64,000 nucleotides of DNA from Limnochordales bacterium (GTDB taxonomy: Bacteria; Bacillota; Limnochordia; Limnochordales; DUMU01): the NCBI GenBank assembly GCA_014896315.1, contig JADBKP010000001.1:124001-188000 (forward strand), written 5' to 3'. Position 1 is the stretch's first letter; each line of letters begins with the position of its first letter. The notes below the pieces were generated by a model. It searched no databases. It had not been told where the DNA came from and saw nothing but the letters and a program-made list of their open reading frames with translations. Both the position numbers and the translations under genes were made by a program. Shown piece after piece: positions 56,810-64,000 of the stretch.

Positions 56810-58414
56810 TCAGGCGGTAGGCGATGCAGGCACCCGGCAGGTGGCCGGCAGGTTGGCAGACCACGGCAGCAGGTCGTCCAGGGCCGCCGGGTTCCCAATG
56901 TCCACGTTCAGAAGCCGGTCGAGCAGATACGTTAGGTAGGCGAAGGGATTGAGCCCGTTCTCCTTGGCCGTCTCCACGATGCTGTAGATGATGGCGCTCG
57001 AACGTGCACCGCGAGGAGTGTTGGCGAACAGCCAGTTCTTGCGCCCGATGACGAACGCCTTGATCGACCGTTCGCTACGGTTGTTGTCCAGTTCCAACCG
57101 GCCGTCCTGGAGGAACGCCGTCAGTTTGCTCCATTGGTTGAGACAGTACTGGACCGCCTGCCCAAAGGCGCTTTTCGGTAGAGCACAGGCCGCCTGGCGC
57201 TCAAGCCAAGTATGAAACTCCTCTAGCACCGGCCGGCTGCGTTCCAGACGGGCGGCCTGGCGCTCTGCCGGCGTGACATCGGCCAACTCTCGCTCGAGCG
57301 CAAACAGGCGGTTACAGAATTCCAACCCTTCTTGCGCCGCCACTCGTTTGCCGGCGCGGGCAGATGGAGGAAGCGCTTTGAGAGCTTCGTCGAACTTGCG
57401 CCGTGCATGCGCCCAACAACCCACCAGGGTAACGTTGGGCAGCCCGTCGTAGCCGGAATAACCGTCCACATGCAGGTAACCCGAAAAGCCCGACAGGAAT
57501 TTGCGGGCGTGCTCCCCCGCACGAGTCTGCTGATACTCGAAGAGAACGATGGGTGGTCCATCTCGTCCCGTGCGATACAGCCAAAAATATGACTGAGTCT
57601 GTGCCGCTCGTCCTGGTTCGTGGAGCACCTGTACGGTGGTCTCATCCGCATGGAGGATCTCTTGTCGGAGCAGGTGTTCGTGCATCCGCTCGTAGAGCGG
57701 GCTCAACCACCGGTCAGCAGCGATGAGCATCCAGTTGGCCAGGGTTTGACGGGAGAGAGCGATCCCGAGCCGTTCAAACTGCTGCTCCTGGCGGTAGAGA
57801 GGCAAACCCTCCACGAACTTCTGGGTCATTACGTAGGCGACGGTCGAGGCAGAAGCCAGACTTCCCGGAATTACAGGTGCAGGCATCGGCGCAGGGACGA
57901 TGGAAGCAGTGACCTCCTCTCGCTCACAGTGCCGGCAGCCATAGATGTGGCGAACATGCTCGATCACTTTCGCCTGAGCCGGGATGATCTGAAGTTCCTG
58001 CCTAACTTCCGTACTCATCTCGTGCAATGGGCCACCGCAAGCCGGGCAGATCTGCTCCGCCTCAGGGAGACGGTACTCAATGGTCTCCACCGGAAGGTCT
58101 TGAAGCATGGCTTCACGATGGCCGCGGGCCTTGCGACGGCGATAAGAGTTGACCGTCTCCAGCGTCGGTTCCGGCGGAGCTGGGCTGGCTGCTTCGACCT
58201 CGGCTTCGTTGAAGATCAATGGTTGCTGTTCTGTCGGGGTACGTTCACTGGAAGCACCAAACTGGCGGTGCCTCGCTAAACGAAATTGCTCCTCAAACCA
58301 ATGCAGCTTTGCCGTCAGCTCAGCAATCTGTTGCAACAATGCAGCGTTCTGCTGTTCCAAAGCAGCGCATCGGTGGCGAAGATCTTCAGTGGTTGCGTCG
58401 GAAGAAAGTGTCAT
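56810..58414 (-). CDS. tnpC: IS66 transposase TnpC
   Basis: 534 residues. N-terminal leucine-zipper-like segment ([40 protein letters not shown]), a zinc-finger-type CPACGGPL ... YGCRHC, and the DDE core: [10 protein letters not shown] (first Asp), [11 protein letters not shown] (second Asp), and [27 protein letters not shown] with the catalytic Glu. The C-terminal segment [24 protein letters not shown] (here [18 protein letters not shown]) is also typical. Intact; transposes IS66 together with TnpA/TnpB. Confidence 0.96.
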
Positions 58415-58478
58415 GATAGTCTCATTCGCCGTTGTTACGTCGATCTCCTCTTGCTTAGCAAGTTTTTTCGCCTCGATC

Positions 58479-58835
58479 TCAAATGATCGTCCGGGCGGTT
58501 ACCTCTGGATGAGCCTCCCGCTGTTCAAGGGGGAGACCGTCGAGTAACCAGCGCAACTGGCGACGAGTGATAGCCAGCGGAGTAGCACTGGGCTTTGCCG
58601 GCCATTGAAAGTGACCCCGCTCTAGCCGCCGGTAATGCAGCCAAAATCCGTTGTGGTCCCACTGGAGAATCTTGAGCTTGTCCCGGCGGCGATTGCAGAA
58701 AACAAACAGGCAAGAGGAGAATGGGTCCAGCGCAAATGCCTCACGCACTAACGCTGCCAAGCCGTCGATCGACTTGCGCAGGTCCGTGCTGCCGCACGCC
58801 AGATAGACCCGGTCCGGGCCGATATCGGTCAGCAT
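58479..58835 (-). CDS. tnpB: IS66 accessory protein TnpB
   Basis: 118 residues. Recognised from [65 protein letters not shown] (IS66 Orf2 signature). It is required with TnpA for IS66 transposition. It overlaps tnpA by 7 bases and precedes tnpC by 64. Confidence 0.96.
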
Positions 58836-59149
58836 AATGCCGTCAGCACCCGCACAACGGCTGTTAGCAATTCCGGATCGAACCCCGATTGCACCTCAAT
58901 AACGGCTGAGCCCACTCGCACAAGCAACCCGTTGCCGGTATGGGGGAGCTCCCGGTCGTCTACCACCACCGGCAGCCATTGTGACGCTTTCTTTGTACGT
59001 GCTGGTACGGGTGCCAGCCGTCTGATCCAATAGTACATCTGATGGGGTTTGATTCCTTGGGCTCTACACCACGCCGCCACAGTCTGCCCGCTGGCCAAAA
59101 AGGCTGTAACCCGTGCCTGCCACTCTTCTCGTTGTTCGGTATTGGTCAT
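58829..59149 (-). CDS. tnpA: IS66 accessory protein TnpA
   Basis: 106 residues: EEWQARVTAFLASGQTVAAWCRAQGIKPHQMYYWIRRL is the helix-turn-helix of IS66 OrfA. It begins 87 bases inside the right end and overlaps tnpB, suggesting translational coupling. Confidence 0.93.
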   Translation of the reverse strand: MTNTEQREEWQARVTAFLASGQTVAAWCRAQGIKPHQMYYWIRRLAPVPARTKKASQWLPVVVDDRELPHTGNGLLVRVGSAVIEVQSGFDPELLTAVVRVLTALC

Positions 59150-60041: not shown

Positions 60042-60422
60042 CTATATCTCGTCAAGGTCCGATAGGTCAATATCCAGATCAATGACGACGGGATGACCCC
60101 ACAGCGCCTCACACGGCTCCCTAGCTACTCCCGGAAGTCGCACGTTAAGGCAGACGATCCGCTCTTGCGAGTCGCCAGTATGGTAAACACTGGCCAACAC
60201 GCAAGGTTCATCCTTATCCTCGAAAGGCAGAGGACTCTTGTCGTAATACCCCCACTCGATTACCATCCGTTTTTCTTCAGCCATCCTGCGAATTCCATTC
60301 ACTACTTGCGCTATTGGAGTCTCGCCAGTGAACCAGAGGGTGACACGAAAGTTGCTCGAGTATGGATAATAAGCGCGCGCAAACTCGAAGAGAGTTTGCC
60401 AGCAGGTCTCATCTGCCGCCAA
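60042..60422 (-). CDS. Conserved-looking hypothetical protein
   Basis: 126 residues, TTG 60422 directly after an in-frame stop; AGGAG is about 14 bases upstream, longer than ideal. Soluble, mixed alpha/beta, with aromatic and acidic residues (FRVTLWFTGETPIAQVVNGIRRMAEEKRMVIEWGYYDKSPLPFED) and an acidic C-terminus (DLDIDLSDLDEI). I recognise no family. It lies between the barrel-like protein and the CRISPR-associated pair, same strand. Confidence 0.5.
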   Translation of the reverse strand: MAADETCWQTLFEFARAYYPYSSNFRVTLWFTGETPIAQVVNGIRRMAEEKRMVIEWGYYDKSPLPFEDKDEPCVLASVYHTGDSQERIVCLNVRLPGVAREPCEALWGHPVVIDLDIDLSDLDEI

Positions 60423-60607: not shown

Positions 60608-62185
60608 TCAGCCGGGTGGAAGTAAGATCTCCTTCTCAAGACCTTTAAACATCCCCTCAACAATGCTTAGCGGATCGGACACACCGAGGGCGCGCAGCAC
60701 TCTCACGGCCGGGCCACCGTTATACAAGAAACGCGGGGGTTGATTATTAGACCAGACACCCGCTACCTTAAACTCCGTCTCCGCACGTCTACGGTCATCC
60801 CGCACAAGCCGGCCGTGAACAGCCGCGTTACGGTAGTTCCTGATCGCCGGCCGGCGGTCGTCCAGTGCCTGCTGCATCACCTTTAACTCTGTCCTGATAG
60901 GTTCGTCCAGTACGTCAAGCCAGCGATCAACGTGCTCTCGGTGCGTATGATACCAATAACAGCCAGGCCGTCCCGGGATCGGTGTGAGAGGTGCCCTGGA
61001 TTCATGAGGCCCAAGCAGCACATCGGGGGGCTTATGTCCCGGTCTGGCCTCCAATTCGCGTTCGATCTCGTTCAAGCTGCTGACCCAGTTCGCCCTCTGT
61101 ATAGCATCGAGCAGGGCCGTATCCCAGAAGGTGACGGAGTTGATGACCGCTTCCTGTATTCTTCCTGCCCGTAACGCCGCCTGAGCGCGGGCTGCCGCCC
61201 AGAAGCAGCGCAAGGGTATATTGAGGCGTGTCAGGTATTTGGGAGCGCCAGCCGGAACAGGACTGCGACCGGCCAACCAGTCGGCCGCGACAATGACCGG
61301 CTCGGCCCAGTGTTGCTCCCACTCGTCCCCGAGCACCCTCTCGGCGAATGAGGCTGCCCCCTCGAGATCTCCCTTGCGAATGCGGGCAAGGGCTGCCTCG
61401 CGGAGCCGGTAGGCTTCTTGTGGAGCCTTCTGCAAATAGGCGCCGTACCTGACCAGGTGATTACTGTGCTGGGGTACTTCCACGATCTCGACACGTTCTG
61501 AACCGAAAATGAGGTTGGCAACCTGAACGATTAGCTCTTTGAGCGCAGGAAATCCCCCAGTTCTCGCGATTATCACATGAGATGGTCTAAGATCCTCCTG
61601 CAGTCGCGCAAGAGCGAGGTGAAGCCGCCTCACCAGTTCCTGTGCCAATGGCCGCTGGACCGGGTCACTGCCCTCCAGTCGCTCCCTGCCTTGCAAGAGA
61701 TTTACCCATTGCGCTCCTCCCGGCCATTTGGAGTGCGCAGGATCCCAGGGCTCGCGTCGCTGCAAAGCCAACTCACGGGCTAACGTAATGTCGCCTCTGT
61801 TTCGTGCCTCGATCCACCCTGCCAGCACCGGGCCTGCCGCGGCCGGCTCGGAGCGAAAGATCTCCGGATCACGTTGTGTACTGAATATTACGGCCGCAGT
61901 TACACGCTCTAGCCGGTCAAGAACGTACTTTAACTTCGCCGGAACCAGCCGGATCCTGCCGTCTGTATCGCGAAGACAATCCGTAATATCAGGACCTATT
62001 CCCCCGCGTGCCTCGAATTCCCTTATCTGAACCGCTTCTTCGTCTACGACCCAGTCTTCACCATTCAGCAGACTCTCATGGAAAACTCGTGTCTCTGCTA
62101 CAGTTGTCCGGCGTTCCTCACCTGCATGCCTGATTACCACTTGCAGATCGGTTTCGCCAGCCGGTACAAGCAGCAGCGTGGTCAT
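60608..62185 (-). CDS. CARF-HEPN ribonuclease (Csm6/Csx1-like), CRISPR type III ancillary protein
   Basis: 525 residues, ATG 62185 with AGGAGG eight bases upstream, overlapping the RAMP gene by 4 bases (ATGA). N-terminal half reads as a CARF-type Rossmann domain: TTLLLVPAGETDLQVVIRH at the start, AAVIFSTQRDPEIFRSEP and SHVIIARTGGFPALKELIVQVANLIFG, where the TGGF loop is a CARF landmark. The C-terminal helical domain contains the HEPN RNase motif R-x4-H in RNYRNAAVHG (Arg452, His457). Such proteins are switched on by cyclic oligoadenylate and cut RNA without sequence preference. The exact Csx family is not certain. Its translational coupling to a RAMP protein shows it belongs to a type III locus extending past the right edge. 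Confidence 0.75.
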   Translation of the reverse strand: MTTLLLVPAGETDLQVVIRHAGEERRTTVAETRVFHESLLNGEDWVVDEEAVQIREFEARGGIGPDITDCLRDTDGRIRLVPAKLKYVLDRLERVTAAVIFSTQRDPEIFRSEPAAAGPVLAGWIEARNRGDITLARELALQRREPWDPAHSKWPGGAQWVNLLQGRERLEGSDPVQRPLAQELVRRLHLALARLQEDLRPSHVIIARTGGFPALKELIVQVANLIFGSERVEIVEVPQHSNHLVRYGAYLQKAPQEAYRLREAALARIRKGDLEGAASFAERVLGDEWEQHWAEPVIVAADWLAGRSPVPAGAPKYLTRLNIPLRCFWAAARAQAALRAGRIQEAVINSVTFWDTALLDAIQRANWVSSLNEIERELEARPGHKPPDVLLGPHESRAPLTPIPGRPGCYWYHTHREHVDRWLDVLDEPIRTELKVMQQALDDRRPAIRNYRNAAVHGRLVRDDRRRAETEFKVAGVWSNNQPPRFLYNGGPAVRVLRALGVSDPLSIVEGMFKGLEKEILLPPG

Positions 62186-63957
62186 CGTCTCTGCCTCCTA
62201 CCACGAGAATGCTCTTTGCGAATTTCTGCATGAAAGGCGAAGATTTTACCACCACGGCTCGGATATGGCGCCCATTCCGTATCACGAAAATCGTGAATAG
62301 CGAGCCATCTTCCTAGTGATCGAGTATCGATCAGCTTAGCCGCCTCAGCAACACACTCGCATAGCGACGTTTCATCCAATAACTCCAGGCGATAGCCGTT
62401 ATCACCATCACATAGCCGATAAGCCGCATCAACAGTGACGACAACGCTGCCCCAACCTAGGGGACGGGCGTGGCCTAACTTGGTGGCATAGCGAGGTTGA
62501 TTGGGAGTACCGTCGGTCTTAACACCGGCTTCGTTCCGAATTGCTTCCGGCAGCATGCGAACAAACTGGTCCGGGCAGAGGGCAATCAGGAGGGCACCCA
62601 GCTCTGCCGGGCTCAAATCACGGAACCGGACCTTAAATCTAAACTGCGTTCCGGGAGTGCTGACAAAACGAGCAATGGTAGCCCGTTCGTTGAGGAGGTC
62701 ACCATCGCTGTCTGCACTGTAATCCCTGGCGCTTACAGCAGCTGCCGGGTTATGCTGGTAAAACTTCCGGCCGGCCAGATCACCCGGCGGGTCCCAGTCC
62801 GGCAGATCGCCGTAGGTAACAACCACTCCCCGGTCCAGCCGCTGCCGTTCGCCTAACTTGGACTGGTCGATGTAAAACTCAACCGCACTCGGCTTGGGTG
62901 CCGCCAGCTCTTTAAGAGATATGGCAAAACCGCGGTTGGGAGCCAGAAAGCGCTGCGCATCCGTCCTTCCCGGCGGAATCTGCTCTACGGCCATGTTGAA
63001 CGAGACACGGCCGGCAAGTTGTGTAAAGTCACCGCTCCCGATCCCGGCACTGCCGGGGTTATCGCCTGTGTAGCCAAAAAGAGCCCGGGCGCCCGTCAGG
63101 TGGAGGGGACGGCCGGCAGGATCTTTCTCAAGCTCTGCAGGCCGAGGAGAAACCTCCGGCCGCAGCACCCAGCTGCCATCCTCAGCTCGCCGGCGGCAAA
63201 CTGTATTCACATAGCGCCAGCGGTAATAATAGTGGTGACCGTAGGATACGACACGCTTCTTTTGCGTGTCCCACTCTACGAAAATGAGGTCTCCCTTAGC
63301 AAAACCTCGTTCAGCTGCTCGCTTGAGATGACCAATCGCCTGCGACCGCTTTTCGTGGTCGTTACCCAGGGAAGGGTGACGTGGACTTACGTGTCCCCCT
63401 TCAGGATCAACCAGGTGGAGGTAGGTCTCAACCCAAAAAGTATGAACTGAGTCGTCAATCGGCACATTTCTTATTGGAGGAACGGGAGTCCTGGAAGCCT
63501 TCGGGTCGGCCGAAATATTCAGCAATCGATTACTAAGGACAGGCTTGTCATTGAACTCGGCCTCCCAGCCCTCCATTCCTCCTCTATACCTGTGCTGCAG
63601 AGTGCTATCGCGGCAAAAACGCGCCCGTTCCATAGGATATATGTCCACAATAGAAGGCAATCGATAACACCGGCCTGCATATTGGAAGTCACGAACCTCC
63701 CTGACGATGGCCGGACGCGGTTCTAGAATCAGTCTAACTGGTTGCTGGTTTCCTCCCTTTGGCCACATAAGGTTCGGCCGGTAGGAGAACGACTGGTCCC
63801 AAACCCGCTCCATCGGCGCTCCCAAAAGCGCTCCTATCGACTGGCGGACCATGCCCTTAATCTGCTCGCCAGGGATCAGTACCCGCCCCCGCTCGTCTCG
63901 CAGCGGCTCAAGAACAGTACGGTTACCATGCACCCGTCGTCCCGGGAACCAGGGCAC
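62182..63957 (-). CDS. TIGR03986-like CRISPR-associated RAMP protein, N-terminus probably incomplete
   Basis: 591 residues from GTG 63957. RAMP features: VLIPGEQIKGMVRQSIGALLG (the glycine-rich PGxxxKGxxR loop), GARALFGYTGDN, AGRVSFNMAVEQ, FLAPNRGFAIS, LAGRKFYQHNPAAAV and LGHARPLGWGSVVV near the C-terminus. The order fits TIGR03986, a large multi-RAMP protein of type III-associated loci. The usual beta1 strand before the PGxxxKG loop is very short: the first 20 residues are PWFPGRRVHGNRTVLEPLRD, and an in-frame TAG lies directly before the start codon. So either translation starts here, coupled to a gene ending at TAG, or a frameshift hides the true N-terminus beyond 63958. It overlaps the CARF-HEPN gene by 4 bases. 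Confidence 0.72.
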   Translation of the reverse strand: MPWFPGRRVHGNRTVLEPLRDERGRVLIPGEQIKGMVRQSIGALLGAPMERVWDQSFSYRPNLMWPKGGNQQPVRLILEPRPAIVREVRDFQYAGRCYRLPSIVDIYPMERARFCRDSTLQHRYRGGMEGWEAEFNDKPVLSNRLLNISADPKASRTPVPPIRNVPIDDSVHTFWVETYLHLVDPEGGHVSPRHPSLGNDHEKRSQAIGHLKRAAERGFAKGDLIFVEWDTQKKRVVSYGHHYYYRWRYVNTVCRRRAEDGSWVLRPEVSPRPAELEKDPAGRPLHLTGARALFGYTGDNPGSAGIGSGDFTQLAGRVSFNMAVEQIPPGRTDAQRFLAPNRGFAISLKELAAPKPSAVEFYIDQSKLGERQRLDRGVVVTYGDLPDWDPPGDLAGRKFYQHNPAAAVSARDYSADSDGDLLNERATIARFVSTPGTQFRFKVRFRDLSPAELGALLIALCPDQFVRMLPEAIRNEAGVKTDGTPNQPRYATKLGHARPLGWGSVVVTVDAAYRLCDGDNGYRLELLDETSLCECVAEAAKLIDTRSLGRWLAIHDFRDTEWAPYPSRGGKIFAFHAEIRKEHSRGRRQRR

Positions 63958-64000
63958 CTACCATTGCCCGGAGTCTTGGTACGGCGAACAGGTACGTTTG

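Follow-up and report, generated by a model that had tools for sequence, protein, structure and literature searches.

What is a gene pair made of a RAMP protein and a CARF-HEPN RNase, when it stands by itself at the end of the sequence in hand? The question is raised by the right edge of the window, that is, the whole stretch of 64,000 nucleotides analysed here (G000:C1:124001-188000), where a RAMP gene of the TIGR03986 family runs on the reverse strand into a CARF-HEPN gene (Table 1). A previous sequence-only reading supposed that the remainder of a type III locus lay beyond the edge and that the pair might represent a compact variant of type III. The window lies inside a 598-kb contig, about 410 kb of which continue past it, and the neighboring sequence could be read. 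Both genes and their ATGA coupling were found as that reading had described them; related operons show the same pairing, the 4-base overlap recurs in five of them (L041, L044, L045, L046 and L047), and the type III origin of the pair is supported. Its interpretation is another one: the pair is very probably what remains of the 3' end of an operon like type III-Dv (III-D2) that underwent a single internal deletion.

Table 1. Coordinates of the features at the right edge, in positions of the window
Feature	Position	Strand	Basis
CARF-HEPN RNase gene (CARF_m10 family, Csm6-like), 525 codons, intact	60608..62185	-	PADLOC profile, conserved columns, model
HEPN motif R452-x4-H457 (R-N-A-A-V-H)	60815..60832	-	Alignment of ten sequences
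ATGA, overlap of RAMP stop and CARF-HEPN start	62182..62185	-	Sequence
TIGR03986-family RAMP ORF, 591 codons	62182..63957	-	ORF call
Truncated TIGR03986 RAMP (Cas7-insertion-like), part homologous to relatives	62182..63924	-	TIGR03986 profile, alignments
Deletion joint, 28 bases assigned without certainty to either side	63925..63952	-	Between cas10 and RAMP homology
3' part of the 28-codon cas10 stub	63953..64000	-	Cas10 homology

The identity of the RNase, proposed from its sequence, held under closer analysis. The PADLOC profile CARF_m10--CARF_HEPN matches it along its whole length (E 1.7e-75), and R452, N453 and H457 of the HEPN R-x4-H motif are invariant in the alignment with nine relatives. 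G10, D13 and G211 are invariant as well and, together with the full-length profile match and the fold comparison, they indicate an N-terminal CARF domain. The protein retains 16 of the 18 columns that are invariant among its relatives. Its structure model (pLDDT 76) returned Csm6 structures as the first matches in a PDB fold search (E 2.5e-5, probability 1.00). The resemblance to Csm6 RNases, such as that of Enterococcus italicus (PDB 6tug), concerns the fold ranking and the HEPN motif, whereas sequence identity is about 10%, the whole-chain TM-scores are low (0.26-0.31) and the protein is assigned to the CARF_m10 family. The CARF-HEPN protein would thus be an RNase switched on by cyclic oligoadenylate. 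CARF_m10 was present in this genome only among 399 genomes of the phylum, plasmids queried with the protein gave no match, and a PDB sequence search with its profile gave a chance match only. Just downstream of the gene lies a 126-codon ORF with no Pfam match (60042-60422, reverse strand) and, 1.5 kb downstream, there are genes of an IS66-family transposon (TnpC, TnpB and a probable TnpA; 56810-59149, reverse strand).

The operons of relatives provide the measure of what is missing. The plasmid pTs485 of Candidatus Thiodictyon syntrophicum (NZ_CP020372.1) carries a complete operon whose Cas10 contains GGDD, and of 12 loci recovered when genome contigs were scanned with this Cas10, nine hold a full operon (L039, L040, L041, L043, L044, L045, L046, L047 and L049; the CARF-HEPN of L049 was assigned from position and alignment only). 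The full order is cas10, a Cas7/Cas5 fusion, a double Cas7, in some cases csx19, the TIGR03986 RAMP and the CARF-HEPN gene. In the operons of pTs485 and L039-L049 the RAMP is homologous to that of the window (31-41% identity), a homologous CARF-HEPN comes immediately after it and the N-terminus of Cas10 is the same; unlike the locus studied here, these operons are complete, and in Thiodictyon a reverse transcriptase-Cas1 fusion, Cas2 and a CRISPR array are present in addition. The gene order of the parent operon is that of the Synechocystis type III-Dv (III-D2) operon (PMC11026444; PDB 8s9t), with csx19 present in Thiodictyon. The locus of the window differs from that of Synechocystis in what it keeps, namely the C-terminal portion of the Cas7-insertion gene and no more than 28 codons of cas10, and in the place of its effector: the CARF-HEPN gene comes after the RAMP here, but the Csm6 and Csx1 genes of Synechocystis stand upstream of the cas operon (PMC11026444). 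In Synechocystis the target is cleaved by three aspartates, which belong to the Cas7-Cas5-Cas11 and Cas7-2x subunits (PMC11026444); the counterparts of both subunits are lost here.

Several of these relatives have surroundings of their own. In Roseiflexus sp. (Chloroflexota; L045:912-19966) and in a member of Myxococcota (L047:2884-21458), the complete III-D2-like operon sits inside a BREX-related Type-1 operon, with a Snf2 helicase and a DUF1156 methyltransferase before it and a Swt1-HEPN/DUF499 ATPase after it; in both, the end of the methyltransferase gene overlaps the start codon of cas10, and a search of the stretch found no CRISPR array. The paper defining BREX-related Type-1 systems (PMC12839542) does not mention Cas10. 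The window's own genome also has a DUF1156 methyltransferase gene (G000:C18:21544-21759), which is unlinked to the CARF-HEPN locus. A Methylococcales locus presents a CRISPR-like array between RAMP and CARF-HEPN (L040:12989-13563), and Cas3-like genes of an adjoining type I system stand directly upstream of two III-D2-like operons (L042:7240-9729 and L046:3332-6478).

Measured against these operons, the RAMP of the window is incomplete. It exceeds the curated TIGR03986 cut-off (167 versus 161.35 bits, E 1.1e-48), which confirms the family named in the earlier reading; the description as a large multi-RAMP protein found no support, the nearest solved counterparts being the single Cas7 subunit with an insertion from type III-Dv and the final Cas7 portion of Cas7-11. 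Because the RAMP profile matches PDB 8s9t_E in a PDB sequence search, the Cas10 of a relative matches 8s9t_C, and PADLOC names the Thiodictyon genes Cas10d, Cas5_IIId, Cas7_IIId and Csx19, the most fitting description of the protein is an insertion-containing Cas7 that has been truncated. Its AlphaFold model was too poor for use (pLDDT 48), so that, of the two proteins proposed for modelling, the CARF-HEPN could be compared by structure and the fold of the RAMP is read from its sequence. Homology to the relatives begins at about residue 12 of the ORF and covers only residues 180-832 of the Thiodictyon RAMP; the N-terminal 130-260 residues (approximately) of the relatives are lacking, including the block PYxFVxLP ... 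RLSGE ... LTPLLVG common to nine other RAMPs. What remains retains 88 of the 97 columns invariant in the relatives, leaving out the internally shortened L044. A frameshift was considered in place of a deletion and rejected, because the missing N-terminus occurs in no upstream frame. In a phylogenetic tree the RAMP groups with those of the full operons (100/99) and separately from three further TIGR03986 proteins belonging to the phylum, a placement that holds at the level of the group and gives no firm position inside it. Searches for homologues found none at E <= 1e-8 in 73 genomes of the class besides its own, and neither a scan of genome contigs with a two-sequence RAMP alignment nor a search of viral contigs gave a match.

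The sequence past the edge points to where the lost part was. A short frame, MLVPVHIEFRRVQTYLFAVPRLRAMVGA, stands directly before the RAMP and out of frame with it; it starts 36 bases past the window end (C1:188036 = L001:5037), has a start codon preceded by a ribosome-binding site (GGAGGT) and ends after 28 codons at a TAA (63923-63925). Its translation is 88% identical over 25 aa to the start of the L047 Cas10, the sole match of that Cas10 in the whole genome (E 5.9e-7), and 75% identical over 24 aa to the Thiodictyon Cas10 (E 1.5e-9), whose counterpart IVRIEIQRIQTFLFAVPRLRAMLGANALLG lies near the N-terminus. The PADLOC Cas10 profile matches the stub independently with its profile positions 6-29, a weak match when taken alone (E 0.012). 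A stop codon immediately precedes the RAMP frame; 278 bp farther comes the end of a gene for a secreted phosphoesterase of 1545 aa, which combines phosphodiester glycosidase, cohesin and purple acid phosphatase domains, and between this gene and the stub on the RAMP side there is a hairpin with a T run. These elements, and not the remainder of a cas locus, occupy the sequence directly beyond position 64000: the stub was all that was found of a cas operon at this place. A complete cas10 with its GGDD palm is absent from the locus, as are the Cas7-Cas5(-Cas11) fusion and the double Cas7, and the insertion-containing Cas7 gene is present without its N-terminal part. No match to a sigma-70-type promoter was found upstream of the stub, and no CRISPR array in the window or in the stretches L001 and L002.

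Cas10 start, RAMP and CARF-HEPN follow each other in the same order as in the full operons, and removal of 5813-6419 bp from the nine intact operons would give the present locus. One internal deletion of about 5.8-6.4 kb would have joined codon 28 or so of cas10 to the middle of the RAMP, removing the body of Cas10, the Cas7/Cas5 fusion, the double Cas7, any csx19 that the parent had and the N-terminus of the RAMP. Because no sister strain with an intact operon was at hand, the deletion is deduced from distant relatives and its breakpoints are approximate. That the two genes instead form a working compact system is very improbable: both ORFs are open and coupled, but the conserved N-terminus of the RAMP is missing, the cas10 stub upstream reveals a loss, and no operon of RAMP and CARF-HEPN alone occurs among the relatives examined. 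An assembly error, in which the organism would have a complete operon and the assembler skipped about 6 kb or mixed deleted and undeleted strains into one sequence, is unlikely, if less so. The joint is known from one assembly, consisting of 20 contigs and with read support not given, but it sits inside the 598-kb contig and shows no evident repeat that could have misled the assembly, as judged without an intact parent for comparison. Moreover, the assembly is stated to be 96.8% complete and the lost genes are on no other contig: Cas10 and RAMP queries found no displaced copies, and queries of the whole assembly with PF03787 and the L045 double Cas7 matched only in unrelated loci on contig C20 and of type III-F.

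After such a deletion, the locus would be unable to form its own crRNA complex or to make cyclic oligoadenylate, and the RAMP fragment would no longer be a working backbone subunit, while the intact CARF-HEPN may still be capable of acting as a Csm6-like RNase if the signal were supplied from elsewhere. The number of invariant columns kept in both proteins implies either a young deletion or continuing constraint on the genes; the little decay of their motifs would fit a recent deletion as well as retained function.

The genome contains other type III loci. About 21 kb past the gene pair, type III-F-like genes (Cas10f-, Cas5f- and Cas7f-like) are found on the reverse strand (L002:9039-12933; C1:209-213 kb), with no GGDD seen in their Cas10. 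Contig C20 carries a type III-D operon (L003:7404-17207) with a GGDD Cas10, Csx10, Csm3-like proteins, Csx19, a short TIGR03986-like RAMP and Csx21; some 35-40 kb from it are Cas6/Cas1/Cas2-like genes, assigned by position and sequence (L005:9962-13395), and a small CRISPR array (L005:12332-12799). Since the Cas10 of this III-D locus has GGDD and the tested genes of its operon include no CARF gene, use of the CARF-HEPN in trans is possible. The proposal that the RNase was kept by selection and is activated by the cyclic oligoadenylate of the C20 system builds on the deletion and competes with mere decay; we regard it as tentative and rather doubtful. It is favored by an intact CARF-HEPN with conserved motifs, by the retained cas10 start codon and ribosome-binding site, and by genome searches in which the CARF profile PDLC01163 matched this protein alone and the Csx1_HEPN profile gave no match. 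A young neutral remnant would nevertheless look identical, there is no close relative for a selection test, the searches covered only some of the CARF and SAVED families, and that of the genome with PF09670, in which no control matched, carries no weight; the lack of a promoter match upstream of the stub also speaks against the proposal. That the gene is now a cyclic-oligoadenylate effector of the other III-D locus, driven in addition by the leftover cas10 start region, is slightly more doubtful still.

The locus represents a known kind of system in broken form, and an apparently minimal pair of RAMP and CARF-HEPN is explained as the product of a deletion with a traceable joint, which cautions against taking gene pairs at the edge of a contig for new compact systems. 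Its interest lies mainly in the clear joint and the intact effector gene. The locus is also a natural setting in which to ask if an effector RNase can survive the loss of the CRISPR complex it belonged to and enter the service of a second complex of that cell.
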